Shown piece by piece: positions 5,468 to 47,051 of a stretch of 64,000 nucleotides of DNA. Position 1 is the stretch's first letter; each line of letters opens with the position of its first letter. Under the pieces are notes generated by a model. It was not told the origin of the DNA, searched no databases, and saw only the letters and a program-made list of their open reading frames with translations. The translations under genes and the position numbers were made by a program. The DNA is from Planctomycetaceae bacterium (GTDB taxonomy: Bacteria > Planctomycetota > Phycisphaerae > Phycisphaerales > UBA1924): assembly GCA_027487735.1 (NCBI GenBank), contig JAIYDA010000154.1, positions 1 through 64,000 on the forward strand, read 5' to 3'.

Positions 5468-6481
5468 CTACTCAGGCCCCTCCGCAGCCCCCGCTTCCCC
5501 CGCCCCACCCATCTCCACCAGCGGCTGCATCCCCAACCATAACGGCAAGTTCTCATCATCGATGATCGCCAGCGCCTCGCCCCCATCCAGCGCACGCTGC
5601 GCCGCCCAGCTCGCATGATCGATCCCCAGCAGCTGCCCCTCGACGCGCAGCCACGCCAAGAGCTCGTTCTCGCTCAGCGTGCGCCCCGGAATGCCCCGGC
5701 ACTGCGTGCACAGCCGTTGGTCAGTGCTGCGAGGCAGCCGCTCCAGCCTGCCCCCGCCGCACACATTGCAAGGTCCGCGCTGCGCATCCTCGAGCACGCG
5801 CGTCACGCCCCCCGAAACTCCCGCGCGTGCCAGCGTGCGATCCAGCGACTCCAGCCGCTCGCGCACGTCGCTCCGCCGCAGCAACGCCCGCGCCCGCGAC
5901 GTGTCCCCACTCCGCGCCGACCCCAGCAGCAGCGCACACAAATAGTCCACCGACTGCTCACTCGCCGGGCCTGCCCCACTGCCCGCTGCCCCGCCCACCC
6001 CCACGCGCTCCTCCCCCGTGCTGCCCCGCAGCAGCACGCCCGCACCCGCCGGGTCCAGCCGCGCCGCCAGCGCGCGCACGCGCTCGCGATCGGCCCGCAA
6101 AGGCAGCGTGTCTCCCAGCGCAAGCAAGGCCGACACGCGAAGCCCCCGCCCACCCGCAGGCGACTGCCGCGCCAGCTCGTGCGCCGTCACCAGCAGTTGC
6201 GTTGCCAGCGCACGCAGCTCCAGCGAGTCCAACCGCGCCGCCGCATCGCTCGCCTCTTCCCCAAGCTCAAAGAACGCCTGCGCATCCGCAGCCCCGAGCT
6301 TTCCGGCAGTCTGCCGCAGCGCCGCCTCAATCTGCCCCGCCCCCGGCTCGCCGGCGTCGGTGCTCGCTCCCTGCGCCCGCACGCCCGTGGGCCACGCAAG
6401 CGCCGCCACCGCGCACACCACCGCGCACGACGCAATCCACGCCCCGCGCCTGCCCTGTACGCCCTGCTGCCACTGCCTCAT
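5468..6481 (-). CDS. Exported zinc-ribbon protein of the ExbBD/VWA cluster
   Basis: 337 residues. The start at 6481 overlaps the upstream stop by ATGA and has GGGAGG six bases ahead. The N-terminus is a clear Sec signal (about residues 1-37, ending ...GVRAQG). A helical alanine-rich middle follows, then a C-terminal four-cysteine knuckle: CNVCGGG, then CTQCRG about 17 residues later. This looks like a rubredoxin-type zinc ribbon or a redox-active cysteine pair set. It is the last gene of a coupled eight-gene set, so its product probably acts at the cell envelope with the proteins encoded before it. No family was recognised. Confidence 0.75.
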   Translation of the reverse strand: MRQWQQGVQGRRGAWIASCAVVCAVAALAWPTGVRAQGASTDAGEPGAGQIEAALRQTAGKLGAADAQAFFELGEEASDAAARLDSLELRALATQLLVTAHELARQSPAGGRGLRVSALLALGDTLPLRADRERVRALAARLDPAGAGVLLRGSTGEERVGVGGAAGSGAGPASEQSVDYLCALLLGSARSGDTSRARALLRRSDVRERLESLDRTLARAGVSGGVTRVLEDAQRGPCNVCGGGRLERLPRSTDQRLCTQCRGIPGRTLSENELLAWLRVEGQLLGIDHASWAAQRALDGGEALAIIDDENLPLWLGMQPLVEMGGAGEAGAAEGPE

Positions 6482-9400
6482 GCCCCACCTCCCAGCGCAA
6501 TCCACCACAGCTCCAGCATCGCCTGCTCCAGCGTCACCATCTGCGTCAGCACCCTGTCCGCCCGATCCGCATCGCGCCGTGCTACATCCCGACGCGCGCC
6601 CTCGAGTACGCTCCGCACCCGCGCCGCCTCCGCGGGCGCCCGCGCAATCGCCACGCTCGCCTGCAACTCCAGCATCGCCATCTGCCGCGCCACAAACTGC
6701 TGCGGTCGCCCCCGCGCCACCCGCAGCCGCTGCTCCTGCAGCGCGAGCGTCTCTTCCAGCGACGGTGCCCCACCCCCCACCACCGGCACATACAGCGTCC
6801 GCACATACCCCGCGATGTTGCCCACCAGCTTCTCGCTCAGCTCCGTCGGGTCCGCATCATCCGCCCGCACGGGCATCACGCTGGGCGCCAGGCCCATCCC
6901 CACGCGCCGCCAGTTGTCCAGCGCAAACCCCCGCTGCTCATAGATGCCCCCCAGCACCCGCTGCCCCGTCGCGATGTCGCGCACGTCCTCGTTCGCGCCC
7001 TGCGCGATGCGCTGAATCAGCCGCTGCATCACCCCCTGCCGCAGCCGCACGCGCCACCCCGGATCGCGCACGCTCCCGATCTTCACGCCCGACAGCCGCT
7101 CATAAAAAGGCACCAGCTCCGCCACGGGCGGCGCACTCGCCGAGGCATCGAGCATCGCGCTGAGCACCATCGTGTTCTCCGCGTTCGCCTCCGTCAGGCT
7201 TCGCGCCCGCCCCCGCAGCTCGGGGGTTGCGCCCCGCATCGTCTCCTGCACCAAAATCCGCGCTTCGAGCAGGTTCGACACGCCCCCAGCGCTCCGCAGA
7301 GCCTCCAGCCGCTTCGTCGCGTTCGCGCCGGCGAGCACATACCGCTCGCCCCACGCACCGCTCTCCACGATCACCGTCAATCGCGCGATGTTCATCGGCG
7401 CAATCGCCGCCTCGGGCAGCGAGGCTGTGCCTCCATCGCCCAGCCCCGCCTTCGCAACCTCAATGTCGCCCAGCACGATCTGCCACGCCAGCGTGTTCAG
7501 GCTTGCCGCCTCCACAAGCTTCATCACCGCCTGCGTCCGCGTCGCGCCCTCGACAAGCCCCTCGCGCTTGCTCCCCGCAATCCCGCGCCAGCGCTCAATC
7601 ACCTCGGTCGCCGCGTCGTCTCCCGCTGCCATGTCCCACAGCGCCGCCAGCCGCTCGCGCAGCAGAGCCCGATCGCTCTCGCTCGCGCCCGCCGTCAGGC
7701 TCATCGACAACTCCACGCCCGCGAGCTTGCCCTCAATGAGCGACGACACGATCACGCTCACCTGCTCGGGCCCCACCCCGGGCGAGGCAAGCCACCCCAG
7801 CAGCCGCTGCCTGCTCGCGACGCTCGCCTGGTCCTTCGTCGCGCTCGCACCAAACCCCGCTGCTGGCACAAGCACGCGGTACCCCATCAGCACCATGGGC
7901 TGCTGCGCCGGGCTCTGCCCGCTGCTCAGCACCGTGTCGATCGCGCCCAGAGCATGCTGCCCGAGCCTCGTCTCGTCCCCAGCCGCGAGCGCGCGAGCGC
8001 TCTCGCGCCACGCCTCCCACAGCCCCTGCGCTTCGGGCACGCTCACACGCCCAACTCCAGCACCAGTACCAGCACCAGCTCCAGTCCCCATGCCAGCCAG
8101 CCGCGCAGGCATCGCCCGCAAAGCGCTCTCGCCCCCCGCCAGCATCCCAAGCCGCCCGTCCTTCGCGGGCTCGCCCACCACCCCAAACACCGCATCGCTC
8201 GCGCGCATGATGCGCTCCAGCGTGCCCCACGCCAGGTCGCGCTCGCTCCGCAGCCGCGCCAGCAGCCCCGCGCTGAGCACCGCGCTGCGCACATCCTCGG
8301 GCGTGCGAAGCTGCCCCTCCACCAGCACGCTCCGCGCTGGCTGCGCCACCAGCTCCACCGCTGCCTGCGCATGCTCCTCGCTGTCGCCCACGCGATAGAT
8401 GTACTCCACCACCGCGCTGCTCAGCGCCAGCAGTTGCTGCTCGCTCGCGCTCACCCAGCGCTGCCCCAGCTCGTCCATCGCATCGCGAAACACCGTGAGC
8501 GAGCCATCCAGATCGCGCGGATTCGCCGGTGGCTTCGCCGGATCGACTTCCGCGCTCCCATCTGCCTGCTGCACGCTCGCCGACACCCGCTGCACACCCC
8601 CGCGCTGCGCCGCCTGCTGCAACGCCGCCAGCAGCTCCTGCATGCTGCGCGACGCGCCGCGCTCGCCCGCACGCGCCTCGCGCCCGCTCGCCTGCCCCGC
8701 ATCTCCCGCGTTCGTCTGCGTGTCGTTCCCGCCACTGCCCGCGCCTTGCGCCACATCGCGCCCCGCAGGCAACTGCCCCGCCCCGTCACCAGTTCCGCCA
8801 GCCCCAGCTTGCCCCGCCGCGCTCGCGGCATTCCCCGCACCCGCGCCCCCGCCCGCCGGAGGCGTGCGCCCCACCGTGTATCGCAGCGTGAGCGCCACCA
8901 CGAGCAGCAACGCCGCCCCCAGCGCCGCCCCACCCAGCAGCCGCTTCACCGCACCATTCGGATCAGGCTCGGACAAGGGGTACGCGTCCACCGTGGCGGC
9001 ATCATCCCCCCGCTCGCGCACGCGCGGTGAGCCGGGCTGTGCACCAAACTGTGGCCCTCCCTGCGGTCCAGTCTGTCGCCCTGCATGGAGCCCTGCCTGC
9101 ACGCTTGCCTGTGGCATCGCCCGAGGCACCACCGAAGGCACCGCCTGCCGCACGCCCGCCGCAACCGGCCCGCGCATCACCACCTGCGTTGGCATCACTG
9201 CCCGCGCCCCGCCCAACGCTGCCCCACCACCCGACAACCGCCGCAAGCTCGCGACCAGTTCATGCACGCCCACTCCGTGCGACATCGCCAGCAGCCGCGC
9301 ATGGTGCATCGTGCGCTGGTTCCACCCGCCGTGCAGCCCCAGCGTGATGCGCATCGCCTCGTCAAACGCCGTCAGCCCCACCGCGCCTCCACCCGGCACA

Positions 9401-9936
9401 CTCGCCTGCACCGCCCGCCCCACCACCACCTCGCGCCCCGCATACGCCAGCGCATCCCCCTGCCGCGCGTGCGACACCGCGCTCTGCATGGGCGGGCTCT
9501 GCATGGGCGGGCTCTGCATGGGCGGGCTCTGCATGGCCAGCTCCACTGGCCCATCTGCCAGCTCCAGCACCTCCGTGCCCATCGCCCCCGCGCTCCCGAT
9601 CCCACCGCCCAACCCACCGCCCAAGCCCGCTCCCAAACCGATCCCCTCCGACAGCATCACCGCCGCACTCGCGTGCAGCAGCATCCGCACGTGCGACACC
9701 TCCGCATCGCTGCCCGCCGGCACGCGCGACACGAGTTCCAGCCGCTCGCGCAGCGCCCGCAGCACCGTCGCCTCGTTCGACACGCCCGCAGGCAACCCCA
9801 GCACATGGTGCGGCGCAAGCGCATCGCGCACGCCCTCGGTGCGAAGCTGCACATACTTGCGGAGCAGCGCCGCACTATCCAGCGAGGCTGGCTCGTGACC
9901 CCGTTCGTGCCCCGGTTCATGACCCTGGTGGCTCAA
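6478..9936 (-). CDS. Very large membrane-anchored protein with J-like N-terminus
   Basis: 1152 residues, translated from a TTG at 9936 that overlaps the previous stop (TTGA) and follows a strong GGGGGAGG box. Residues 20-100 (HHVLGLPAGVSNEATVLRAL then RERLELVSRV) resemble the helix pair of DnaJ-like N-termini seen in planctomycete proteins, but no HPD is visible. Residues about 136-152 are a fourfold MQSPP repeat. A single membrane span lies at about 331-354 (LLGGAALGAALLLVVALTL). The remaining 800 residues are helical and alanine-rich, predicted outside the membrane. The layout suggests a scaffold that links cytoplasm and periplasm. Function unknown. Confidence 0.78.
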   Translation of the reverse strand: MSHQGHEPGHERGHEPASLDSAALLRKYVQLRTEGVRDALAPHHVLGLPAGVSNEATVLRALRERLELVSRVPAGSDAEVSHVRMLLHASAAVMLSEGIGLGAGLGGGLGGGIGSAGAMGTEVLELADGPVELAMQSPPMQSPPMQSPPMQSAVSHARQGDALAYAGREVVVGRAVQASVPGGGAVGLTAFDEAMRITLGLHGGWNQRTMHHARLLAMSHGVGVHELVASLRRLSGGGAALGGARAVMPTQVVMRGPVAAGVRQAVPSVVPRAMPQASVQAGLHAGRQTGPQGGPQFGAQPGSPRVRERGDDAATVDAYPLSEPDPNGAVKRLLGGAALGAALLLVVALTLRYTVGRTPPAGGGAGAGNAASAAGQAGAGGTGDGAGQLPAGRDVAQGAGSGGNDTQTNAGDAGQASGREARAGERGASRSMQELLAALQQAAQRGGVQRVSASVQQADGSAEVDPAKPPANPRDLDGSLTVFRDAMDELGQRWVSASEQQLLALSSAVVEYIYRVGDSEEHAQAAVELVAQPARSVLVEGQLRTPEDVRSAVLSAGLLARLRSERDLAWGTLERIMRASDAVFGVVGEPAKDGRLGMLAGGESALRAMPARLAGMGTGAGAGTGAGVGRVSVPEAQGLWEAWRESARALAAGDETRLGQHALGAIDTVLSSGQSPAQQPMVLMGYRVLVPAAGFGASATKDQASVASRQRLLGWLASPGVGPEQVSVIVSSLIEGKLAGVELSMSLTAGASESDRALLRERLAALWDMAAGDDAATEVIERWRGIAGSKREGLVEGATRTQAVMKLVEAASLNTLAWQIVLGDIEVAKAGLGDGGTASLPEAAIAPMNIARLTVIVESGAWGERYVLAGANATKRLEALRSAGGVSNLLEARILVQETMRGATPELRGRARSLTEANAENTMVLSAMLDASASAPPVAELVPFYERLSGVKIGSVRDPGWRVRLRQGVMQRLIQRIAQGANEDVRDIATGQRVLGGIYEQRGFALDNWRRVGMGLAPSVMPVRADDADPTELSEKLVGNIAGYVRTLYVPVVGGGAPSLEETLALQEQRLRVARGRPQQFVARQMAMLELQASVAIARAPAEAARVRSVLEGARRDVARRDADRADRVLTQMVTLEQAMLELWWIALGGGA
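9481..9540. repeat. 15-bp in-frame tandem repeat
   Basis: Three exact copies of GCTCTGCATGGGCGG and a fourth that diverges at its end, coding the MQSPP repeats of the 1152-residue protein. A multiple of three, so copy changes keep the frame. Likely a slippage site. Confidence 0.95.
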
Positions 9937-12770
9937 GGCTTGCCTCCCCCGCCCGGAACCGCTGGCGTCGTGGGCGCACCCGCACCCGGCTTCGCCCCCG
10001 GCATCACCGGAGCCGTCGGCTGCGCCAGCGCAATCGCAATCTCCACGCCCACGCTTTTCAGCTCCTCCGCATAAGGCGGCGGAAACTCCTTGCTGTGCAG
10101 CACCTTTGTCTGGTCCAGCGCTGCCTTCGCCTGCTGCGGATTGATGCGGAGCATCACGCGCAGCGACGCAATCCGCGCCTCATACCACTGCTCCGCGGGC
10201 GGATCAAAGCTCGCGAGAATCTCCAGCCACGCATCGAGCGATGCCTGCAGCGCCCCCGCATCCTCCGACAGCCGCGCGATGCGCCGCAGCATCGCGTGCG
10301 TCCGCACGCCGCTCGCGAGGCTGGCGTTGTCGATCGCCAGCGCGCGGTCGCGCATCGCAGCGTCCTTCGTGCTCTCCCACAGGCTCGCCGCCGCAGCCGC
10401 GACCCACTCTCGGGCCTGGCTGGCAGTCGCGCCCACCACTCCCTTGCCATCCATGATGCGAGTGCCCGCAAACACCACGCCCTTCGCGCGCTCCGCATCG
10501 CTCGGCGCTTCCTGCCAGCGCGCCACCGCACGCCGCAGCCACAACGCATCCGCCGCGCTCGCAAAGGGCCCGCCCCGCCCGCGCAGCTCATCGCCCAGCA
10601 CCGTCGCCCGCGCCTCGTCGTCGCGCGCCAGCGCAATCTGCAACCGCCGGAACGTCAGCTCATCGCGGAACGTCGTCGTGTCCAGCCCATTCTTGAATGC
10701 CGCCTGATCGAGGCTCGCCAGCGCGCTCTCCACCCGCGCCAGATCGGGCACCGACACGCTGAGCAACGCCTCCGCAAGCTGCCTCGCCCGCACGCCCACG
10801 CCCTCCGCTGCGCTCCGCGCCGCCTGCTGCTGCGCGGGCGTGTCGCGCACGTCGCTCAGCGCCCGGGCCAGGTCGCGCCGAAGCAGGTCCTCCGCCACGT
10901 CGGCAAACCGCAGCGCCGAGAACTCCCGCGTGCTCTGCCCGCTGCTGCGAAACGCGCGATAGAGCAGCCGCGCCGCCTGCGCCCGCGCCGCCTCATAAAG
11001 CCCCGAGTCACTCGGCACCGCCAGCAGCAGCTCGATGGTCTTCTCACTCCCCGCCTCATCCGCCCCCGCGCGCCGCAGCAGCAGCCTCGTCGCGTTCTCC
11101 GTCGCCGGAAACTCGCTGATGTACAGCGTGACAAGCCGCTCGTGCCGCGTGGTCAGGCTCTCGTCGCTGGCGTTCTGCTTGAGCAGTTCCTCCATGCACA
11201 CGATGGCATACCACATCGCCTCGCCGCGCACGCCGCTGTCGCTCGCGAGCGCGACCGCCCGCTCAAACACCTCCGCCGCCTGCCCCAGATCTCCCGCGTA
11301 GTAGAGCGCAAGCCCCTGCCGCAGTGCCGAGGGTGCAATCTCCTTCGGAAACCGCGTCGCGTCCTCGCTCGTTGCCGCACCCTCCAGCAGCCGCGCCGCA
11401 TCGCGATACTGATTCACGAGCACCACGAGCTTCGTGGGCTTGTCCCCAGGTCCATCCTGCGCGCGGTGCCCCTCGCGCGCTGCCTCGAAGGCCTGCGTTC
11501 CTTTCACATAGAGCACGATGAACCCGCCCTCGCCCAGGGGCAGCGTGCCATACCTGCGAACCAGGTCCACCACCTGCCCCGCAAGCTGCTGCGCGATGAG
11601 ATCGCCCAGCGCGGTCTGCGCCATGTCGCTCGCCACCTTGTCCAGCGTCTCGCGGCGCGACACGCCCGCATCGCGCAAGTACTCCAGGCTCAGCACGCCC
11701 AGCAGCCTCGCCTCCACCGGGTTCAGCACGTTTCCCGTCGCCTCGCTGCGCCGCAGCCTCACCAGCACCGCAACATCCGCCCAGCGCTCCGTGCCCGCGA
11801 GCACGATCAGCTTCCGCGAGAACATCTGCTCGCGCACGTTCGCGGGCACTTCGGTGCTCTGCTCCAGCAGCTCAAACCAGCGCAGCGCATCCACGTCGTT
11901 GTCCAGCATCGCATACGCCATCGACGCGCCCATCACGCTCCGGCAGATGTGCTCAAACCGCAAGTTGCCCGCAGAAAACCGCTCGATCGCGGGCGGCTTG
12001 CCTGGCACAGCATTCAGCAGCGTGCCAAACGCCAGCAGGCTCGCCGCAGCTTCCGACCGTTCACCCCCCAGCAGCGACACATAGTGCCGCGCCCACCCCT
12101 CGTAATACCGCGCAATCGCGCGAAGCTGCCTCGCCTCGCCCAGCAGCACGCGCAGCCTGTCCTGCTGGTCGGCGCTTGCGGTGCGCTCCTGCGCTTCGAT
12201 CGCTGCAACCCGACCCTGCAGCTTCGTGGCAAGCTGCCCAAACAACCCCGCGCTCGAACGCAGCTCGCGCAGCGTCTGCTCCAGCTCCGCCTCGCTCAGC
12301 ATGCGCAGCCGCGCCCGCTCCGCTCGCTCCTCCACGGGCAAGTAGCTCGCCTTGGCAAGGTCCAAACGCAGCTCGAAGCTGTCCGCCTGAGGCACATCAT
12401 CGAGCAGCTGCGTCGCCCGCTGCTCCAGCTCGCGCCGCTGCGCGTCATCGCCCCCGCGCTGCGCCTCCTGCAGCATCCGCACATACAGCTCGGCGAGCTG
12501 CTCCGCCAGCCTGGTCCGCCGCTCGAGCGCGTCGGGGTCGCTGGGGCTCAGCTTGGCAATCCGCCCGCGCAGCGCAGCGGCGAGCGCATCTTCCTGCCCG
12601 TGGAGCGCGAGATAGTCGCTCAGCGCCCGCTCGCGCGCCACGCGCGTGTCCTCGGGCGGGGGCGTGTCTTGCGCGTGGGCTACGGCGCCCGCTGCGAGCA
12701 GCAGGCACGCCGACCATGCCCAGCAAGCCTGGCCCCGTGCAACGCGATGCTGTGTCCGCTCACTGCCCAC
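9933..12770 (-). CDS. Exported 945-residue helical-repeat protein of the ExbBD cluster
   Basis: Start chosen as the GTG at 12770, which overlaps the ExbD stop by about ten bases, has GGGGG about five bases ahead and leaves a normal signal peptide (VGSERTQHRV, then hydrophobic ACLLLAAGAVAHAQ). A longer ATG frame to 12857 would run through the ExbD gene. The mature part is almost wholly alpha-helical with repeated Ala/Leu/Glu/Arg pairs, consistent with TPR or TPR-like superhelices; for example ALYYAGDLGQAAEVFERAV near the middle is a typical TPR unit. It ends in a Pro/Gly-rich tail. Probably a periplasmic binding scaffold coupled to the ExbB/ExbD motor. Exact role unknown. Confidence 0.8.
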   Translation of the reverse strand: MGSERTQHRVARGQACWAWSACLLLAAGAVAHAQDTPPPEDTRVARERALSDYLALHGQEDALAAALRGRIAKLSPSDPDALERRTRLAEQLAELYVRMLQEAQRGGDDAQRRELEQRATQLLDDVPQADSFELRLDLAKASYLPVEERAERARLRMLSEAELEQTLRELRSSAGLFGQLATKLQGRVAAIEAQERTASADQQDRLRVLLGEARQLRAIARYYEGWARHYVSLLGGERSEAAASLLAFGTLLNAVPGKPPAIERFSAGNLRFEHICRSVMGASMAYAMLDNDVDALRWFELLEQSTEVPANVREQMFSRKLIVLAGTERWADVAVLVRLRRSEATGNVLNPVEARLLGVLSLEYLRDAGVSRRETLDKVASDMAQTALGDLIAQQLAGQVVDLVRRYGTLPLGEGGFIVLYVKGTQAFEAAREGHRAQDGPGDKPTKLVVLVNQYRDAARLLEGAATSEDATRFPKEIAPSALRQGLALYYAGDLGQAAEVFERAVALASDSGVRGEAMWYAIVCMEELLKQNASDESLTTRHERLVTLYISEFPATENATRLLLRRAGADEAGSEKTIELLLAVPSDSGLYEAARAQAARLLYRAFRSSGQSTREFSALRFADVAEDLLRRDLARALSDVRDTPAQQQAARSAAEGVGVRARQLAEALLSVSVPDLARVESALASLDQAAFKNGLDTTTFRDELTFRRLQIALARDDEARATVLGDELRGRGGPFASAADALWLRRAVARWQEAPSDAERAKGVVFAGTRIMDGKGVVGATASQAREWVAAAAASLWESTKDAAMRDRALAIDNASLASGVRTHAMLRRIARLSEDAGALQASLDAWLEILASFDPPAEQWYEARIASLRVMLRINPQQAKAALDQTKVLHSKEFPPPYAEELKSVGVEIAIALAQPTAPVMPGAKPGAGAPTTPAVPGGGGKP

Positions 12771-13215
12771 GCTTGCCCCCAGACCCAGAAGAAAGCCCCG
12801 AAACCGGCACGTAGTTGATGCGCGTGAAGCCCGCATCGCTCGCCGCCTGCATCGCAATCGCCACCGCCTCCACGCTCACGCCATCGGGCACCTTCACAAA
12901 CAGCCCGCCATCCTTGGGCAGCGTGCTCAGCAGGTTCGTCAGCGTCGTCTGCGTGCTCACGCTGCGATCGCCCAGCGAGTACTGCACCGTGCCCGTCTTG
13001 CTGTCCAGCCGCATGCTCAGCACCTGGGGCTGCAAGGGGCTGCGCACGCCCGTGCCCTTGTTCTGGCTCGCGAGCGTGGCTTGCAGTTGGCTCTCGCCGC
13101 TGGTCATGCGGGCCGTGACCAAGAAGTAAATGAGCAGCAAAAACACGACGTCGATGAGGCTGGTGAGGGGCAGCCCCGCGTCACCTTCCGCGGGCCTTGC
13201 CTTGATGAATCTCAT
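12760..13215 (-). CDS. exbD: ExbD/TolR-family proton-channel subunit (second copy)
   Basis: 151 residues. A short cytoplasmic start MRFIKARPAE leads into one membrane span, LTSLIDVVFLLLIYFLV, with the conserved proton-relay aspartate at residue 22. The periplasmic ExbD fold follows (GGLFVKVPDGVSVEAVAIAM). A strong GGGGGAGG box precedes the ATG, and the start overlaps the stop of the other exbD by four bases. Together with ExbB it should form a proton-driven inner-membrane motor. Two different ExbD partners for one ExbB are usual in planctomycete clusters and suggest a heteromeric pair. Confidence 0.93.
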   Translation of the reverse strand: MRFIKARPAEGDAGLPLTSLIDVVFLLLIYFLVTARMTSGESQLQATLASQNKGTGVRSPLQPQVLSMRLDSKTGTVQYSLGDRSVSTQTTLTNLLSTLPKDGGLFVKVPDGVSVEAVAIAMQAASDAGFTRINYVPVSGLSSGSGGKRGQ

Positions 13216-13664
13216 GGCGTGCCTCCCCCAGCAGTTCCGTCATTCTTCACCTCGCCCGCCGTGCCAAGCTGCCACCCGCGCACACCAAACGCCGCCAGCG
13301 TGCGCGCCACGATGTTGATGTCATTCGAGCGTGCCAACCGATCCGCCCGCACCAGCACGCGCACGCGGTCTGCCTGGCCCCCCGCCCGCATGATCGCCTG
13401 CTGCACCTGCTGCCCGAGCCCAGTCGCTGCGAGCTTCTTGCCATCGACGATCAGCGTGCCATCCGCCAGCACATCCACCACGAGCGCGGGCGTCTGCCCC
13501 TCTTGCAGCGTCGAACCAAGCTGGGGTGGCAAGTCCAAGGGTGTGCGGCTGCCCTCGACAAACTGCGACGTGAACATGAAGAAGATGATGAGCTGCAACG
13601 TGACATCGATCATGGGCGTCATGTCCATGAACACGTTGCGGGGTTTGGGCTTGATGAAGCGCAT
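13212..13664 (-). CDS. exbD: ExbD/TolR-family proton-channel subunit (first copy)
   Basis: 150 residues. The membrane span MTPMIDVTLQLIIFFMFTSQ carries the essential aspartate at residue 20. The periplasmic part includes VLADGTLIVDGKKL, typical of ExbD. It begins with the same MRFIK as the second copy but the two diverge after that, so this is an old duplication. The gene follows exbB by a few bases. Confidence 0.94.
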   Translation of the reverse strand: MRFIKPKPRNVFMDMTPMIDVTLQLIIFFMFTSQFVEGSRTPLDLPPQLGSTLQEGQTPALVVDVLADGTLIVDGKKLAATGLGQQVQQAIMRAGGQADRVRVLVRADRLARSNDINIVARTLAAFGVRGWQLGTAGEVKNDGTAGGGTP

Positions 13665-13670
13665 GCGTGC

Positions 13671-14555
13671 TCAGCGGGGCGTCGTCGCGGCGGGCGTTGC
13701 TGGAACTGCGGTCTGCGGTGCTGCAGCGCGGGGCATCGCGGGCGCTGCGCGCGGTGCTTGCTTCTCGGTGCGCTGCTCGGCCTCTGCCGCCAGCCCCTCC
13801 GCAATGGCAGCGACCTCGCCCGCGCACTTCTCCATCCGGCTGCGGAAGTAGCTGTGCGCAGCCGTGCACGGAATTGCCACGACCAGCCCCTGCACCGTGG
13901 TGATGAGCGCGATGGAGATGTACCCCGCAAGGTCCGCAGGCTTTGCCGCCCCTTGCGTGCCCGCGATGGTGTCGAACGCGCCCACCATGCCCACCACTGT
14001 GCCCAGCAGCCCCAGCATCGGCGCGATGCTCGCGATGAGCGCGATCACCTCGTTGGGGCGAGACAACCGCGTTGCCTCGCCCGCGCCCGCTTCCTCCAGC
14101 GCGCTGCGAAGCTCGAGCATGCCAAAGGGCGAGCGGCTGCAGCGCGACAGTGCCTGCCCCACCACCCGGCACAGAAACACGTCGTTCTCAGGCTGATTGC
14201 AGAACTGCATCACGCCCTTGGTGTCGTTGTTGTGCATGCCGCGCTCAATCGCCTCGACGATCGCGGGCGGGGCGAGCTTCTCGGTGCGAAGCCTCACGAA
14301 CTGCACGATCGCCATCGCCACCGCGACGACGCTGAGCCCGATGATGACGTACCCAATCAGCCCGCCGCCCTCGATGTACTGCCAGAGGCTCTTGGTCGCG
14401 CTCGCGGTGGCAGCAGCGGCCCCTGCTGCGGGCGGCGCAACGGGTGCGCCGGCTGGCGCGCCCGCGCCAGCCTGGGCGAGCAGCATGCAGGCATGATGGG
14501 CATGGTGGGCCGCATCGGCAAGCAACGAGATGATGGTGGGAAGCAAGGTGTGCAT
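13671..14555 (-). CDS. exbB: ExbB/TolQ/MotA-family proton-channel protein
   Basis: 294 residues. After a His-rich and Ala/Pro-rich N-terminus come three membrane spans: about 73-95 (GYVIIGLSVVAVAMAIVQFV), about 175-195 (IASIAPMLGLLGTVVGMVG) and about 212-232 (ISIALITTVQGLVVAIPCT). The polar Thr residues of the last two spans match the proton-path threonines of ExbB. A long N-terminal stretch rich in Ala and Pro is typical of planctomycete ExbB. It lies directly before two exbD genes. Confidence 0.93.
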   Translation of the reverse strand: MHTLLPTIISLLADAAHHAHHACMLLAQAGAGAPAGAPVAPPAAGAAAATASATKSLWQYIEGGGLIGYVIIGLSVVAVAMAIVQFVRLRTEKLAPPAIVEAIERGMHNNDTKGVMQFCNQPENDVFLCRVVGQALSRCSRSPFGMLELRSALEEAGAGEATRLSRPNEVIALIASIAPMLGLLGTVVGMVGAFDTIAGTQGAAKPADLAGYISIALITTVQGLVVAIPCTAAHSYFRSRMEKCAGEVAAIAEGLAAEAEQRTEKQAPRAAPAMPRAAAPQTAVPATPAATTPR

Positions 14556-14647
14556 AAAGAAAACGTGCGAAGGACACACAACCGAAACAGCTCTCAACGA
14601 CCAACTTCCATGACAAACCAGCCCCCACCGACAAACCCCGCAGAACG

Positions 14648-15997
14648 CTACGGGGGCGGGCTCGCCTCGCCCGGGGGCGGTGCTGTCGGTTGCGCGGCGC
14701 TCGCGTTCATCGCTGCCTCGGCAGAAGCCGCGATCGTCGCCTCCAGACCTGCGAGGGCCGGGTGCGTCGGCGCGATCCGCCGCAGCTCGTCGCGCAGCAC
14801 CTTCGCGCTCGCGAGGTTGCCCTGCGCCACGCGCACGAGCCCGACATCGGCAAGGCAGAGCCCCGCGAGGAATGGGCTGTCGTCCGCCAGCAGCGCGGGC
14901 ACCCCCAGCGCGATGGCGATGCCCTGGGCCTTTTCTTCGGGGTTGGTGCTCGCGAGATAGCTCCGCGCCAGACCCGTGCGGGCCCACGCCTCGATCCAGC
15001 CCGGAAAGGCCGCCTCGTCTTCGTCGATCTGGTCGAGAATCGATTGCAAGTGCACGCGTGCGGCGCTGCGCTGTTCGGGTGTGCCCGCCTGCACGGCGAT
15101 GATGTCCCACACCAGCCTCGCGCCCGCAAACTCTGGCCCCGCATCGCTCGCGGGCCGCGCAGGCAGGGTCACGTTCTCGCCCATCGCGATGCGAGCAGAA
15201 AGGGCATAGAGCTCTACGAGCGTGCGCGCCACCACCGCCCGGCGGTCGCTGGCAAAGCCCGCGTCGGTGCTGGTTGCCCCAGCGGCTTGTGCGGGCTCGG
15301 GGCGCATCGCAATGGTGCGCAGGCCCACGCCCGGCACCCACAGGGGCGGCAAATCTGGGCAGAGCAGCGTTTCGCGATCGAGCAAGGGCTTGTCGAGGAT
15401 GGAGCGGGCCGCGCCGGTGCGATCCTCGCGCAGGGGCATAAACAGTGGCGGATTCTCGCCGCTTGCCACGAGCGCGAGCCATGCCTCCACGCTCGCGACC
15501 TGGGCCTGGCGATGCAAGCGGCACCGCAAGAGCCCAGCGGCGACCATCGCGCTCGTCTTGCCGCGCGTGCCGACGGTCTTGGCAAAGAGCTGCTCGAACA
15601 GAGGTTCCGCGCCGGCGATGTCGGCCCGCGCGAGGCGCGTGCGGGCGCGCCAGGCGAGGTCGGCGGTCTGCATATGGGCCTGCGCTTCCGCCGCGAAGGC
15701 CTGCGGCACGCTGCGGACTTGGTCCCAGCTCAGCCACGTCGAGCGCGATCCATCGGCGATGCGCACGCCCTGATCGGAAACCTCCACGACGTCGCCCGGC
15801 TGCACGGGCACGCCCGCGCGGAGCACGAGCTCGGTGGCGGGGGCTTTTTTGGTTTGCGGAGCAGTTTGCGTCGCTGGCGAAGCTGGTGGAGTCGCAGCTG
15901 GCTGGGCCAGGGCGACACCTGCGCAGAGCGCCACCACCGCGCACGCAACAAGCATGGGCATCGGGCGTGAGCGAGGATTTGAGGTGGTGCTGCGCAT
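14648..15997 (-). CDS. Exported helical protein of the ExbBD/VWA cluster
   Basis: 449 residues with a signal peptide (MLVACAVVALCAGVALAQ, from about residue 15). A small beta domain follows, VQPGDVVEVSDQGVRIAD, resembling the strand motif found at the front of many planctomycete secreted proteins. The rest is helical with TPR-like character and a Pro-rich C-terminus. It lies 25 bp after the VWA gene stop and 92 bp before exbB. No catalytic signature was recognised. Probably periplasmic and part of the same machine. Confidence 0.75.
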   Translation of the reverse strand: MRSTTSNPRSRPMPMLVACAVVALCAGVALAQPAATPPASPATQTAPQTKKAPATELVLRAGVPVQPGDVVEVSDQGVRIADGSRSTWLSWDQVRSVPQAFAAEAQAHMQTADLAWRARTRLARADIAGAEPLFEQLFAKTVGTRGKTSAMVAAGLLRCRLHRQAQVASVEAWLALVASGENPPLFMPLREDRTGAARSILDKPLLDRETLLCPDLPPLWVPGVGLRTIAMRPEPAQAAGATSTDAGFASDRRAVVARTLVELYALSARIAMGENVTLPARPASDAGPEFAGARLVWDIIAVQAGTPEQRSAARVHLQSILDQIDEDEAAFPGWIEAWARTGLARSYLASTNPEEKAQGIAIALGVPALLADDSPFLAGLCLADVGLVRVAQGNLASAKVLRDELRRIAPTHPALAGLEATIAASAEAAMNASAAQPTAPPPGEASPPP

Positions 15998-16022
15998 GCT
16001 GCAGGCCCTCCGGCGAATGCCA

Positions 16023-16982
16023 TCAGGGCACGAACGTGTAGGTTCCTCCGGAGTCTTTCGCGATGACGCGCATGTTGGCCTGACCGGCCTCGTTGCCGAA
16101 GCAGATGGCGTGGATGGGCACGGGCGGGCTGGAGATGTTCAGCCTCTGCGCGATCTCTTCGTCGACGGTGTCGGAAAACTCGCCGTCGGTCATGAAGTAG
16201 ATCGCGTCGGGCCTGGGAAAGCTGCTGCGGGTGAAGGCGAGCTCGAAGGCGGGCAGGGGCTCGGTGCTTGCGCCGGTGATGATGCCGTCGATCTGCGGTT
16301 CGAGCTTGCGGAGCGTGGCGGGGGTTGCCTGCGAGTACTTGCTCACGCCCCCAAGCACCTGCGAAAAGTCGCTGAAGAGGATGATGGCAAACTCGCTGGT
16401 CTCGGCCATGCCTCGCAGGGTTTTGCGGAGTTCTTCTTTCAGGCGGTCGAGCCTGCCGTTGGCGATCATCGAGCTGCTGACGTCGACGATGAAGATGAAG
16501 CGCGAGCCCGTGGTTTCGACGCCAAAGAAGTTTGCGCCGCCCCCACCACCGCCCGAGCCGCTGAGACCGCCGCCAGTGCCCGTGGTGATGTCGCCCCCGC
16601 CCGCGAGGCTGCCCAGGTCGGCGTCGGAGATGCTGGTCTCGCCCGCGTCGATCGGGGCGGGGTCGATCTCTGGGGTCAGGTCCATCGTGCTTGCGCTCGC
16701 GGCGTCGGCGGCGATCTCTGGAAAGCTCGGCGTGGGCAGGCTCTCGCCCATCATCTGGCTCAGCTCACCCTCGCTGAGGATCGCCATCGCGATGGGCTCG
16801 CTCTCTGTCAGTGCCTTCACGGCGACGGGCGTGCCCCCCGAGCCCAGGCGGATAAGGCGCGCCAGCCCGAAGCCCGCGATGTGGAGCACGAAGCTGAGGA
16901 GAAGGGCGGCGAGCGTGAGGTTGCGCCCCCACGTCCAGAGCAGCTTGGTGAGCGGCGGGGGCAGGTGCTCGTCGCGCTCCAT
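16023..16982 (-). CDS. Membrane-anchored von Willebrand factor A domain protein
   Basis: 319 residues from the ATG at 16982 (an in-frame ATG at 17084 is possible but lacks a ribosome site and would crowd the pyrH promoter). One membrane span at about 22-42 is followed by an acidic and Gly-rich linker, then the VWA domain. The metal-binding MIDAS motif FIVDVSSSM (D167, S169, S171) and the later YFMTDGEFSD are intact. This TonB-like topology, with an N-terminal anchor and a periplasmic working domain, and its position as first gene of an ExbB/ExbD cluster suggest that it takes the place of TonB or is the moved part of the complex. Confidence 0.88.
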   Translation of the reverse strand: MERDEHLPPPLTKLLWTWGRNLTLAALLLSFVLHIAGFGLARLIRLGSGGTPVAVKALTESEPIAMAILSEGELSQMMGESLPTPSFPEIAADAASASTMDLTPEIDPAPIDAGETSISDADLGSLAGGGDITTGTGGGLSGSGGGGGGANFFGVETTGSRFIFIVDVSSSMIANGRLDRLKEELRKTLRGMAETSEFAIILFSDFSQVLGGVSKYSQATPATLRKLEPQIDGIITGASTEPLPAFELAFTRSSFPRPDAIYFMTDGEFSDTVDEEIAQRLNISSPPVPIHAICFGNEAGQANMRVIAKDSGGTYTFVP

Positions 16983-39397: not shown

Positions 39398-41392
39398 ATG
39401 GCCTTCCGCCTCCCGAGCTTGCTGAATTGGTCTCTGCACGGCTTTCTGCCCTGCCTTGTTCCGTGCACGGTGCTCTGCATCGCTGCGCACGCGATCGCTG
39501 GCGAGCCCGTGCGCATTGCCCCACCCCTCTCGCTGCACTTTCACCACGTGTTTGGCAGCGAGCCCCTGCTCGATGGCAACGTCGCGCTGCGCACGCAGAG
39601 CAACATCGTCTCGGTCACGCGCGTCGCATACCTGCTCTCGAACTTTGCCTTCACGACGCGAGCGGGCGATCGCATCGCCATAGACATGCCAGCGGCACTC
39701 ATCGACGCCACCGCCCGTGTGCCGCGCGAGGTCATCACGCTCAGCAGCGTGCCCGCTGGCGAATACACCACCCTGAGCTTCGACATCGGTCTGCCCAGCG
39801 AGCTGAACCACGCCGACCCTGCGCAGTGGGCCCCCACCCACCCGCTCAACCCCAGCCTGAACAACCTGCACTGGAACTGGCAAGGGGGCTACGTCTTCTT
39901 CGCGCTCGAAGGGCGCTGGGTGCAAGCCGACGACACGCTCGGGGGCTACGTGTTTCACGTCGCAACCAACGAGCACCTCACACGGGTGTCCGTGCCCGCA
40001 GCGTTTGCGCACGGCGGAACCGCCGCCTCGCCCACGCACGCGCGCATCACGCTCGACCTTGCACGCGTGTTTGATGGTGTGCACACCATCGCCCTCTCCG
40101 CCGACCCCGCCTCGCACCCCACGCACTCCGCGCCGGGCGATGCGCTCGCTGCGAAGCTGTCGGCCAACCTCGCCCAGGCCTTCTCGTTCACGGGCACATT
40201 CGCTCATGACGAAAGCGAGACAACCGACGGGGCACCAGAGCCCGTTCCGCCTCCGCCCGGCACCACGCCTTATGCGTGGCACGCCCCCAAGCACTTTCCG
40301 CGTGTCGCGCTGCCGCACGACAACCCGCTCACGCGCGAGGGCGTCGCGCTGGGCGAAAAACTCTTCTTCGACCAACGCCTCTCGGGCAACAACGCCCAGA
40401 GCTGCGCGAGCTGCCATGTGCCTGCGCAGGCCTTTACCGATGGCAAGCCCCTCGCCGAGGGCGCGTACGGCGATGTCGGGCGGCGCAACACCATGACGCT
40501 GTTCAATCTCGCATGGTCGCAAGACAGTGGCTTCACGTGGGATGGCCGCAAGGCACGCATCCGCGATCAGGCCCTGCAACCCATCGAGGACGCGCGCGAG
40601 ATGCGCATCGCGCTGCCCGAAGCGATCGACAAGCTCTCGCAAGACGACGCGTACGCGGACATGTTCGAGCAGGCCTTTGGCTCCCAGGGCATCACGAGTG
40701 ATCGCATCGGCCTCGCGCTCGAGCAATACCTCCTTACGCTTGTCGCGGCTCGCAGCAAGTACGACCGTGTGGTGCAAGGCACCGACACCTTCACGCCCCA
40801 GGAGCAGCGGGGCTTTGAGCTTTTCAACGCCGAGTACGACCCTGCTCGCGGACAGCTCGGGGCCGACTGCTTCCACTGCCACGGCGGGCACCTGTTCACG
40901 AATCACCAGTTCGTGAGCAATGGGCTCGATGGCAGCCTGCTGCGAGATCGTGGGCTGGACGTTGCAGAACCCGCTGATGCCTCGCGCGAGCAACCTTCAC
41001 GCGCAGACGCCGACCCAGGCCGCGCGGGCGTGACCGACAAACTCATCGACCACGGGCGCTTCAAGGTGCCCACGCTGCGCAACATCGCGAAGACCGCACC
41101 CTACATGCACGACGGCCGCTTTGCGACGCTGATGGACGTGCTGCGGCACTACAGCGAGGGCGTGCAGCCCTCCCCAAGCCTCGACCCCAACCTTGCCAAG
41201 CACCTGCGTGCGAACGCCCGCATCCCGGGCAGCGAGCACCACGCGGGCGTGAACCTGAGCGACGAGGACAAAGCCGCGCTCGTGGCGTTTCTTGAGACGC
41301 TCACGGACGAGCCTTTGCCTGCCGACCAAACGACCGACGGCGAACCGCCCGCCGCGAAGCCGGACGATCGCAAGCATGAAGATCGTGAATGA
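39398..41392 (+). CDS. Fused MbnP-like copper-binding and MbnH/MauG-like di-haem protein
   Basis: 664 residues. A signal peptide occupies about 1-34. Residues 40-270 match the MbnP family: LHFHHVFGSEPLLDG, then YLLSNFAF, and the aromatic block LHWNWQGGYVFFALEG with W159 and W161. Residues 295-650 are a di-haem cytochrome c peroxidase/MauG-like domain: CASCH (336-340), CFHCH (491-495) and KVPTLRNIAKTAPYMHDG. In methanotrophs MbnH and MbnP are separate neighbours, and MbnH oxidises a Trp of MbnP to kynurenine to make a copper site. Here both sit in one chain. The protein is exported, and c-type haem attachment needs the Ccm system. Confidence 0.85.
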   Translation: MAFRLPSLLNWSLHGFLPCLVPCTVLCIAAHAIAGEPVRIAPPLSLHFHHVFGSEPLLDGNVALRTQSNIVSVTRVAYLLSNFAFTTRAGDRIAIDMPAALIDATARVPREVITLSSVPAGEYTTLSFDIGLPSELNHADPAQWAPTHPLNPSLNNLHWNWQGGYVFFALEGRWVQADDTLGGYVFHVATNEHLTRVSVPAAFAHGGTAASPTHARITLDLARVFDGVHTIALSADPASHPTHSAPGDALAAKLSANLAQAFSFTGTFAHDESETTDGAPEPVPPPPGTTPYAWHAPKHFPRVALPHDNPLTREGVALGEKLFFDQRLSGNNAQSCASCHVPAQAFTDGKPLAEGAYGDVGRRNTMTLFNLAWSQDSGFTWDGRKARIRDQALQPIEDAREMRIALPEAIDKLSQDDAYADMFEQAFGSQGITSDRIGLALEQYLLTLVAARSKYDRVVQGTDTFTPQEQRGFELFNAEYDPARGQLGADCFHCHGGHLFTNHQFVSNGLDGSLLRDRGLDVAEPADASREQPSRADADPGRAGVTDKLIDHGRFKVPTLRNIAKTAPYMHDGRFATLMDVLRHYSEGVQPSPSLDPNLAKHLRANARIPGSEHHAGVNLSDEDKAALVAFLETLTDEPLPADQTTDGEPPAAKPDDRKHEDRE

Positions 41393-44219: not shown

Positions 44220-47051
44220 TTACGCCTTATTCCCGTCGATCTGCATGCCGTAGAAGCTGCGATAGACAAAGAACGCGCTCGCCAGGAAGAACCCGATCGT
44301 CAGCGCGATCGTGATGGGCGTGTGCACAAACCCGGGCTCCTTCACGTGGATGGCAAGCTCCACTGCCAGCAGCCCGAAGAGCGTGGTGAACTTGATCACC
44401 GGGTTCATCGCCACGCTGCTGGTGTCCTTGAAGGGGTCGCCCACGGTGTCGCCCACCACGCACGCGGCGTGCAGGTCGCTGCCCTTGCCGCGGCCGCTGT
44501 TCTTATACACCGGATCGGTCTCGACGATCTTCTTCGCGTTGTCCCACGCGCCGCCCGCGTTGGCCATGAACATCGCTTGATAGAGACCAAACAGCGCGAT
44601 GCTAATCAGGTAGCCAATGAAGAAGAAGGGCTCGAGGAAGGCGAAGCTGAGCGTCGCAAAGAACACGCCTAGGAAGATGTTGAACATGCCCTTCTGCGCG
44701 TAGACGGTGCAGATGGTCACGACCTTTTGGCTGTCCTCCACGCTCGCCTTGGTGTTGCCATCGAGCTTCATGGTGTTCTTGATGAACTCCACGGCGCGGT
44801 ATGCGCCCGTGCTCACCGCCTGCGTGCTCGCGCCGGTGAACCAGTAGATCACCGCGCCGCCCATGATGAGCCCGAGCAGGAACGGGGCGTGCATGAGGCC
44901 CAGCTTGTCGACGTTGGTCTGCAAGCCGCCCGTCAGCACCACGATGATCGAGAAGATCATCGTCGTCGCGCCCACCACCGCCGTGCCGATGAGCACGGGC
45001 TTGGCGGTCGCCTTGAAGGTGTTGCCCGCGCCGTCGTTCTCCTCCAGATACTCCTTGCCCTTCTCAAAGTCGGGCGTGAAGCCAAAGTCGCGCTCGATCT
45101 CCTGCTTGATGCCAGGAATCTGCTCGATCGTGCTCAGCTCAAACACGCTCTGGGCGTTGTCGGTCACGGGGCCATAGCTGTCCACCGCGATCGTCACCGG
45201 ACCCATGCTGAGGAACCCGAAGGCCACCAGCCCGAACGCAAACACCGCCGGTGCCAGCATGATGCTCCCCAGCCCCATCGTGCTGAAGAAGTACGCCGCA
45301 CCCATGAGCGCGATGATCGCGATGCCCAGCCAATATGCACTGAAGTTGCCCGCGATGAGGCCCGACAGGATGTTCAGGCTCGCGCCGCCCTGCTCGCTGC
45401 TCTTCACCACTTCCTTCACGTGCCGGCTGTGCACGCTCGTGAACGCCTTCACCAGCTCCGGAATCACCGCGCCAGCAGCCGTGCCGCACGTGATGATCGT
45501 GCCCAGCACCCACCACGCGTTGCCCGCCAGCTTCGCGATCCCGGCGTTCTCGGGGTACGCAGCCACGATCTCGCCCCACATCCCCTCGTTCAGCATCGCC
45601 CAGCTCGCGGCGTACGTCAGCGCGATCGACACGCCCGAAGTCAGGAACACCAGCACCGTCAGCGGGTGCTCGAAGTTCATCTTCGTCGCGTTCGCATACT
45701 TCGCCTTCGCCATCGCCTCGTTGATGAAGTAGCTCACAGCGCTCGCGATGACCATGATGATGCGCATCACAAACAGCCACACCAGCAGCTTCACCTGGAT
45801 CGTCTGCGTCGTGCTCTGGGCCTTGCTCACCACGCCAGCAGCCTGCGCCACGATCGCCGTGTCGCTCGCGTCGGCCTTCAGCTGCTTCAGCTTGGTCGCC
45901 TCGTCGCCCGTCGCCTTGGCAAGCCGCGTGTCGATCGCGGGCAGATAGCTCGGGTTCAGCTTCGCGCCGCTCGCGTCGGTCCCGCCCACGTCCACGATGC
46001 TCGTGGCGTATGCATAGCTCACCTCGCGCATCTGCGTCCCGCTGCCGATCATCACCGTCTTGGGCGCAAACATGCTGGGGGTCACCGCGATCATCGTGAA
46101 CACGATGAGCGCCACGCCCGTCACGCCATAGGTCTCAAACCCGTCCGCGCTCGGACCAACGCTGTCGCCCGCGTTGTCGCCCACGCAGTCGGCGATCACG
46201 CCCGGGTTGCGGGCATCGTCTTCCTTGATCTTGAAGACGATCTTCATCAGGTCGCTGCCGATGTCCGCGATCTTCGTGAAGATACCGCCCGCGATGCGCA
46301 GCGCCGCTGCGCCCAGGCTCTCACCAATCGCAAACCCGATGAGGCACGACCCCGCAAGGTCCGCCGGCAGCAGCAGCAGAATCGCGAGCATGATCATCAG
46401 CTCGACGCTGATGAGCATCATGCCGATGCTCATGCCCGCCTTGAGCGGAATCGCATAGCACGGGAAGGGCTTGCCCTTCAGGCTCGCAAACGCCGCCCGG
46501 CTGTTCGCAAAGGTGTTCACGCGGATGCCATACCACGCCACGCCATAGCTGCCCAGCACCCCCACCACCGCGAACGCCAGAATCAGCGCCACGCGATCAA
46601 TGCTGAACCCGCTCTGAAACTGCCCGGTCGCCGTGTCGATCACGGGCGTCGGCGCAAACACGCCGAAGTACCCCGCAGCGATCACCCCGATGAACACAAA
46701 CAGCAGCGCTAGGAACTTGCCCTGCTGGATCATGTAGCTCTTGCACGTGGTATAGATGAGCTCGCTCACCTCCAGCATGCTCTTGTGCACGGGCAGCTTC
46801 TTCAGCTGCTGATAGATGATGAACCCAAACACCAGCCCCAACAGGCACACCACAAACCCCGCCAGCAGCAGGTCGTGACCGCCAATGCCCCCGAACTTCA
46901 CTAGGTTCAGGTCAGGAATGACAAGGTTCGCCTCGCCCCCGGGCTTCTGAAACACCGGCAGCTCCGCACCCGCCACACCGCCCGCATGGGCGACGCTCGC
47001 CAGCCCGAGGCCGACGATCGCCGGGACGATTCTCTGTAGTATCTGACGCAT
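44220..47051 (-). CDS. hppA: Membrane H+-translocating pyrophosphatase
   Basis: 943 residues from the ATG at 47051, longer than the usual 670-800. It couples PPi hydrolysis to proton (or sodium) export. About 16 membrane spans. Metal/PPi blocks include DDARNPGVIADCVGDNAGDS, then SADGFETYG and, near the C-terminus, DTVGDPFKDTSS. A Lys follows GNTF where K+-dependent enzymes have Ala, which suggests K+ independence. Extra sequence lies at the N-terminus (signal-like MRQILQRIVPAIVGLGLASV) and as a polar insertion around the middle with repeated Ala/Lys. A strong terminator follows the gene. Confidence 0.93.
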   Translation of the reverse strand: MRQILQRIVPAIVGLGLASVAHAGGVAGAELPVFQKPGGEANLVIPDLNLVKFGGIGGHDLLLAGFVVCLLGLVFGFIIYQQLKKLPVHKSMLEVSELIYTTCKSYMIQQGKFLALLFVFIGVIAAGYFGVFAPTPVIDTATGQFQSGFSIDRVALILAFAVVGVLGSYGVAWYGIRVNTFANSRAAFASLKGKPFPCYAIPLKAGMSIGMMLISVELMIMLAILLLLPADLAGSCLIGFAIGESLGAAALRIAGGIFTKIADIGSDLMKIVFKIKEDDARNPGVIADCVGDNAGDSVGPSADGFETYGVTGVALIVFTMIAVTPSMFAPKTVMIGSGTQMREVSYAYATSIVDVGGTDASGAKLNPSYLPAIDTRLAKATGDEATKLKQLKADASDTAIVAQAAGVVSKAQSTTQTIQVKLLVWLFVMRIIMVIASAVSYFINEAMAKAKYANATKMNFEHPLTVLVFLTSGVSIALTYAASWAMLNEGMWGEIVAAYPENAGIAKLAGNAWWVLGTIITCGTAAGAVIPELVKAFTSVHSRHVKEVVKSSEQGGASLNILSGLIAGNFSAYWLGIAIIALMGAAYFFSTMGLGSIMLAPAVFAFGLVAFGFLSMGPVTIAVDSYGPVTDNAQSVFELSTIEQIPGIKQEIERDFGFTPDFEKGKEYLEENDGAGNTFKATAKPVLIGTAVVGATTMIFSIIVVLTGGLQTNVDKLGLMHAPFLLGLIMGGAVIYWFTGASTQAVSTGAYRAVEFIKNTMKLDGNTKASVEDSQKVVTICTVYAQKGMFNIFLGVFFATLSFAFLEPFFFIGYLISIALFGLYQAMFMANAGGAWDNAKKIVETDPVYKNSGRGKGSDLHAACVVGDTVGDPFKDTSSVAMNPVIKFTTLFGLLAVELAIHVKEPGFVHTPITIALTIGFFLASAFFVYRSFYGMQIDGNKA

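Follow-up and report, generated by a model that had tools for sequence, protein, structure and literature searches.

An eight-gene planctomycete cluster joining a VWA protein to an ExbB-ExbD-ExbD motor as a candidate Ton/Tol-like force transducer

This analysis concerns a cluster of eight genes found in a stretch of 64,000 nucleotides from contig JAIYDA010000154.1 of a Planctomycetaceae bacterium (assembly GCA_027487735.1, here G000; 3.67 Mb in 162 contigs, approximately 91% complete), and the whole of this stretch is referred to below as the window. The genes lie uninterrupted on the minus strand from position 16982 down to position 5468, in the order vwa-p2-exbB-exbD1-exbD2-tpr-p7-p8, and relatives found by similarity are metagenome-assembled genomes labelled Phycisphaerales and Planctomycetota.

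The first gene (16023..16982) encodes a protein of 319 residues with one hydrophobic transmembrane (TM) helix at approximately residues 21-44, a linker rich in Gly and Asp and a C-terminal von Willebrand factor A (VWA) domain (VWA_3, E 6e-8) carrying a metal-ion-dependent adhesion site (MIDAS), of which Asp167-x-Ser169-x-Ser171 is encoded at 16470..16484, Thr240 at 16265-16263 and Asp266 at 16187-16185. It is followed by p2 (14648..15997), an exported protein of 449 residues with a small beta barrel (approximately residues 69-96) and an alpha solenoid (99-435) resembling tetratricopeptide repeats (TPR), and then by the motor genes, which encode an ExbB/TolQ-like subunit (13671..14555), the TolR-like ExbD1 (13212..13664) and a divergent second ExbD, ExbD2 (12760..13215). 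The last three genes encode an exported TPR protein of 945 residues with a GTG start (9933..12770), the 1152-residue p7 with a TTG start (6478..9936), in which helical domains at residues 21-98 and 190-241 precede the only hydrophobic helix (TM, 328-354) and a C-terminal alpha solenoid (432-1147), and p8 (5468..6481), an exported protein of 337 residues with a zinc ribbon in the window copy. Pfam matches above the cut-off for the eight window proteins comprised VWA_3, MotA_ExbB and ExbD twice; the TPR protein gave a single sub-threshold TPR_2, and p2, p7 and p8 yielded nothing in the Pfam scan beyond sub-threshold matches at chance level.

A previous sequence-only reading of the window had described these eight open reading frames (ORFs) in the same order, with one membrane crossing each for the VWA protein and p7, GTG and TTG starts and strong upstream boxes, and all of these features were recovered, the boxes being GGGGGAGG upstream of ExbD2 and p7. 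Its description of overlapping junctions holds for four of the seven, namely ExbD1/ExbD2, TPR/p7 and p7/p8 (4 bp each) and ExbD2/TPR (11 bp), but not for VWA/p2, p2/ExbB and ExbB/ExbD1, which are separated by gaps of 25 bp, 92 bp (14556-14647, the sole large gap of the operon) and 6 bp, respectively.

The complete eight-gene order was found in 22 loci besides the window, in two classes of the phylum, and the arrangement is therefore not a chance one. Relatives of the TPR protein were present in 13 of the 150 genomes of the class sample, all 13 in the same order, and each of them sits in the same cluster or in its surviving part (one contig-end case), while a phylum-wide profile search recovered the complete order in two genomes of another class (G264 and G342), and more loci came from scanning named genomes for the VWA family. 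Every eight-gene locus contains p2. When the nearest possible starts are taken for the 23 loci, overlaps of 4 bp join vwa/p2 in 16, p2/exbB in 12, exbB/exbD1 in 12, exbD1/exbD2 in 11, tpr/p7 in 16 and p7/p8 in 18, counts which are somewhat generous because this choice of starts favours small distances. The divergent upstream neighbour of the operon is, as we take it from its sequence, a UMP kinase (pyrH) gene, and a gene like it stands at the same place in relatives.

A shorter version, vwa-exbB-exbD-exbD-tpr, in which p7 was not recognised, occurs in other families (L100-L102), and a paralogous cluster of VWA and motor genes is widespread in the phylum (L104, L112, L113, L118, L129, L136 and others), several of its copies having a p2-like and a TPR-like neighbour as judged by position. 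Relative to the text sections of PMC12204202, this analysis adds the eight-gene form, in which p2, p7 and p8 are regular partners across two classes. Two further loci deserve mention: the VWA protein of one genome of the other class (L098:6247-7287) has a CxxC...CxxC segment resembling a zinc ribbon N-terminal to its TM helix (sub-threshold by Pfam), and a different ExbB-ExbD cluster (L039, G013:C2:1320000-1339500) includes an exported protein of 1026 residues and a protein of 927 residues weakly similar to the VWA family.

TonB and TolA bind their motors by means of a TM helix with the signature Ser-3X-His-6X-Leu-3X-Ser (SHLS), the Ser and His of which touch TM1 of ExbB/TolQ and a contact network that includes a TM1 Ser, a TM1 Trp and a TM3 Pro (PMC12905483). 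The TM helix of the window VWA protein contains the corresponding pair, Ser30-3X-His34 (16881..16895, minus strand), which the sequence-only reading had not mentioned. In an alignment of 56 motor-adjacent VWA proteins, whose VWA domains share a median pairwise identity of 31%, Ser30 is kept in 54 and His34 in all 56, and no other column of the helix exceeds 27 of 56, the helix being otherwise freely variable. Searching by pattern, Ser-3X-His was found in 53/55 motor-linked VWAs, 37/47 other VWAs and 11/219 background TM segments. The MIDAS is kept as well, with D167, S169, S171 and D266 each present in 55 of the 56 proteins and T240 in 51. On the motor side, Thr186, Thr220, the TM1 Ser75 and the TM3 Pro229 of ExbB are invariant in 33 sequences, as are the TM aspartates of ExbD1 (Asp20, 34/34) and ExbD2 (Asp22, 32/32). 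Since ExbD2 is a divergent second ExbD, the sequences suggest that the ExbD1-ExbD2 axle is heterodimeric.

VWA proteins with a Ser-3X-His TM helix were also observed at nine loci with no motor genes nearby (L103, L105, L106, L109, L110, L111, L115, L116 and L128), and some of the genomes concerned (G320, G352, G397 and G419) hold a VWA and motor locus in addition. A shared motor may serve these motor-free proteins as additional clients.

Six clusters keep vwa, p2, tpr, p7 and p8 without exbB and the two exbD genes. In three of them (L025/L147 in G113, L028 in G090, and L141) p2 and tpr overlap by 4 bp at the site where the motor would be expected, and in the other three (L032/L155 in G102, L157 and L158) p2 and the TPR protein form a single ORF of approximately 1190-1290 residues. 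All of them retain Ser-3X-His in the VWA TM helix. A search with the ExbB family located a motor elsewhere, at 244-270 bits, in four of the six genomes (G102 and those with L141, L157 and L158), and in the tree these four trans motors fall within the clade of in-cluster ExbBs (support 96/92), near those of G119 and G000 rather than those of G084/G125. The combination of motor-less clusters with an orthologous motor in trans therefore makes the five non-motor genes an inseparable unit, whose motor is, to judge from these sequences, probably supplied in trans. These motor-less and p2::TPR fused variants are new here. They also bear on the fixed stoichiometry that the sequence-only reading had considered likely, which does not follow because the motor genes are absent from six clusters and sited elsewhere in four of those genomes.

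In G090 and G113 the ExbB search returned only other motors, at 130-154 bits. Each of these two genomes has an extra ExbB-ExbD-ExbD motor (L036, G090:C4, and L034, G113:C114), seen only in these two genomes among those compared, whose neighbours are presumably an FtsX/LolE-type permease and an ABC ATPase, and it is possible that this motor is a replacement for the missing orthologous one. G000 itself has a second ExbB-ExbD-ExbD set without a VWA gene (L020, G000:C10:42692-44533), preceded by an uncharacterised protein of 577 residues and followed by an SMP-30-like propeller gene.

Profile searches detected neither TonB_C nor the Plug domain of TonB receptors in G000. Plug had no match in 8/8 same-family genomes tested, and TonB_C gave one match over the cut-off (G090), one sub-threshold match (G119) and otherwise none in same-family genomes. 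TonB-type nutrient import is thereby ruled out for the family, and the VWA machine is not a TonB-type nutrient importer. Omp85 was found in all 14 genomes tested, from which it follows that the same-family genomes are diderm. In the genomes with both TonB and Plug (G084 and G107), the ExbD next to TonB is a separate one. A single motor of this kind was included in the tree, where it came out as a distant paralogue on a very long branch. The lack of detectable Ton components and the Ser/His statistics given above are likewise new here. Anti-phage defence (Zorya and other listed systems) was considered and rejected, with no PADLOC profile match for any of the eight proteins.

In the PDB, the TPR family profile matches engineered consensus TPR proteins (E 4e-16), and p2 and p7 have no significant sequence relatives among solved structures. 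The p2 model (pLDDT, the predicted local distance difference test score, 81) retrieved generic TPR proteins (best Z 12.7, 255 residues, root-mean-square deviation (rmsd) 5.9; Foldseek E 0.06). The TPR domain of the Tol-associated YbgF/CpoB was among them, at Z 10.9 over 122 residues (rmsd 2.4), but did not score above unrelated TPRs. The AlphaFold2 model of p7, built on an alignment of 15 sequences, has a mean pLDDT of 68, with the solenoid (432-1147) mostly confident, and a fold search with it returned nothing more specific than alpha solenoids (best Foldseek E 0.008; VIA Z 8.1, 108 residues, rmsd 2.9); a search of a viral fold library found nothing. Residues 21-98 of p7, a cytoplasmic helical domain, may resemble a DnaJ J domain in degenerate form, with HPD missing; hhalign against the genomes' own J domains gave a probability of 18-47% over approximately 32 columns. 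Both models are in keeping with p2 and p7 acting as a scaffold, and neither points to a partner. The zinc ribbon of p8, by which the sequence-only reading had characterised that protein, is lost in many orthologues and is ruled out as a core feature.

Taken together, the anatomy of these proteins, their conservation and synteny, the TM motif and the modularity of the cluster, as read from the sequences, are best explained by a trans-envelope force transducer driven by the proton-motive force (PMF), similar to Ton and Tol and gripping by the VWA domain, in which VWA, p2, TPR, p7 and p8 would constitute an inseparable machine and the motor a replaceable energiser; we assign this reading as a whole a probability of approximately 0.65. 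The force, the gripping, its partners and its output are inferred along the following lines. Five ExbB subunits would surround the ExbD1-ExbD2 axle, and protons passing at the ExbD aspartates and ExbB threonines would turn ExbB around it. Like TonB and TolA, the VWA protein would dock outside ExbB by its TM helix, through Ser30 and His34, and its flexible linker would transmit the movement to the MIDAS domain, which would grip a partner in a metal-dependent manner and pull. The most likely partners would be the periplasmic solenoid proteins p2, TPR, p7 and p8, a scaffold that could pass the pull on to the peptidoglycan or outer membrane, with p7 tethering it to the inner membrane. As output, a Tol-like role in coupling or maintaining the layers of the envelope would be the most probable, with adhesion/gliding or secretion ranking behind it.

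Several observations weigh against this reading. Of SHLS, no more than the Ser-His half is kept, the Leu position (H+7) being variable (23/56) and the last Ser position (H+11) having no consensus in relatives; in the window VWA protein these positions are occupied by Ala41 and Arg45. The 33 ExbB sequences do not conserve the Trp that TM1 contributes to the contact network. Furthermore, G090 and G113 keep the other five genes without an orthologous motor, and a dedicated motor is therefore not essential to the module. On the other side, the proton-driven envelope machine with a VWA protein in the place of TonB, as proposed in the sequence-only reading, gains from the co-conservation and from the TM Ser-3X-His: the families of the VWA, 945-residue and 1152-residue proteins occur with ExbB/D across classes, which it had named as a check, and their homologues are not scattered. 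Its statements that the ExbD aspartates, the ExbB threonines (T186/T220) and the MIDAS are intact, and that TonB and its receptor are lacking, agree with the results above. The arrangement which it had named as contrary to its proposal, ExbB/D beside an ordinary TonB with the other genes scattered, was not found.

One alternative is an Agl/Glt-type machine for surface adhesion or gliding, in which a motor of one TolQ and two TolR subunits would drive an envelope complex while a VWA adhesin held on to the substratum. It would account for the make-up of the motor, which is the same in Myxococcus (AglR being TolQ-like and AglQ and AglS TolR-like), where the motor cluster also lies apart from the machine clusters. 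Against this stands that CglB is an outer-membrane adhesin, whereas in the window the TM helix anchors the VWA protein in the inner membrane. According to the text sections of PMC12204202, the VWA adhesin CglB works with Agl/Glt, and gliding is suggested there for the class of vWA force transducers. This explanation nevertheless appears unlikely to us, given that no outer-membrane barrel family was matched among the eight proteins by Pfam, that the location beside pyrH in many genomes resembles that of a housekeeping locus and, as a weaker point, that a literature search by title and abstract gave no report of gliding in these lineages.

If the cluster were instead an energiser of transport or secretion, the motor and VWA protein would open an outer-membrane channel and the solenoid proteins would handle cargo. 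ExbB and ExbD are homologous to the Ton motor and to PMF-driven secretion motors, and large exported repeat proteins could conceivably act on cargo, but Pfam matched no outer-membrane channel family in the cluster and the eight family genomes carrying it have no TonB-dependent receptor, which leaves this role distinctly unlikely. Finally, the motor may merely share the operon with a force-free, Bat-like chaperone or assembly complex formed by VWA, p2, TPR, p7 and p8. Bat-type operons without a motor typically have VWA and TPR genes side by side, and five-gene clusters without the motor do exist; however, Ser-3X-His is kept even in those clusters, 4/6 of the motor-less genomes retain the orthologous motor elsewhere and paralogous pairs of VWA and motor are found repeatedly across the phylum, so that we regard a force-free complex as very improbable.

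Two other genes were observed elsewhere in the window: one for a membrane-bound ion-pumping pyrophosphatase (H_PPase; 44220-46976, minus strand) and a single ORF joining an MbnP domain to a di-haem CCP_MauG peroxidase domain (39398-41392, plus strand).

Among the systems that carry energy from the inner membrane to the outer one, Ton and Tol are the best understood. The window operon provides a defined parts list for a predicted class of VWA transducers, with its own transducer and giant periplasmic partners, in lineages without TonB or TonB receptors, while the natural motor-less and fused versions indicate which components form a unit and point to a possibly exchangeable motor. Going further, we would propose tentatively, and at somewhat less than even odds, that VWA, p2, TPR, p7 and p8 form a solenoid-based force-transmission apparatus with an exchangeable ExbB-ExbD-ExbD motor, which has taken over trans-envelope coupling in planctomycetes without TonB and TonB receptors.

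In comparison with TonB-ExbB-ExbD and TolA-TolQ-TolR, the operon shares the motor family, the essential Asp and Thr residues, the transducer Ser-3X-His and the ExbB TM1 Ser and TM3 Pro, and differs in having a VWA domain in place of the C-terminal fold of TonB/TolA, two unlike ExbDs and large solenoid partners, with no receptor or TolB/Pal genes in the window cluster. With the Agl/Glt system of Myxococcus it has in common a TolQ + TolR + TolR motor, TPR envelope proteins, a VWA protein and motor genes that can lie apart, but its VWA protein is tethered to the inner membrane, none of the eight proteins is recognised as an outer-membrane barrel by Pfam and the p2 and p7 models are alpha solenoids.

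The closest comparison is with PMC12204202 (Mol Biol Evol 2025), the text sections of which predict inner-membrane vWA force transducers with TonB/TolA topology beside TolQ-like, paired TolR-like and TPR genes in the Planctomycetes-Verrucomicrobia-Chlamydiae (PVC) group, and report an AlphaFold 3 model of the complex with the TM helix at the motor edge and no known deletion phenotype. The central idea, i.e., a VWA protein with one TolQ-like, two TolR-like and TPR proteins, is therefore not new, since it had already been published there as a prediction. Being independent of the present analysis, that prediction with its modelled complexes also counts in favour of the force-transducer reading. 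A second class described in those sections, the TPH-vWA/TolQ pairs, likewise places a VWA protein with an N-terminal TM helix beside a TolQ-like gene, although those pairs have no TolR/ExbD and their proton-binding Asp lies in the TM helix of the VWA protein, whereas the window has two ExbDs and a TM helix (21-44) without Asp. With the vWA class itself the window protein shares a single N-terminal TM helix, a linker flexible by composition, a C-terminal VWA fold by Pfam profile, the motor-contacting His (56/56) with Ser four residues before it (54/56), and TolQ-like, two unlike TolR-like and TPR neighbours. The full SHLS signature is present in many, not all, members of that class and is not strictly defining; its remainder (6X-Leu-3X-Ser) is missing from the window operon, which also puts the VWA gene first, ahead of the motor and TPR genes. 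Relative to the text sections of PMC12204202, the operon further differs in having p2, p7 and p8 as regular partners, a detachable motor and p2::TPR fusions.

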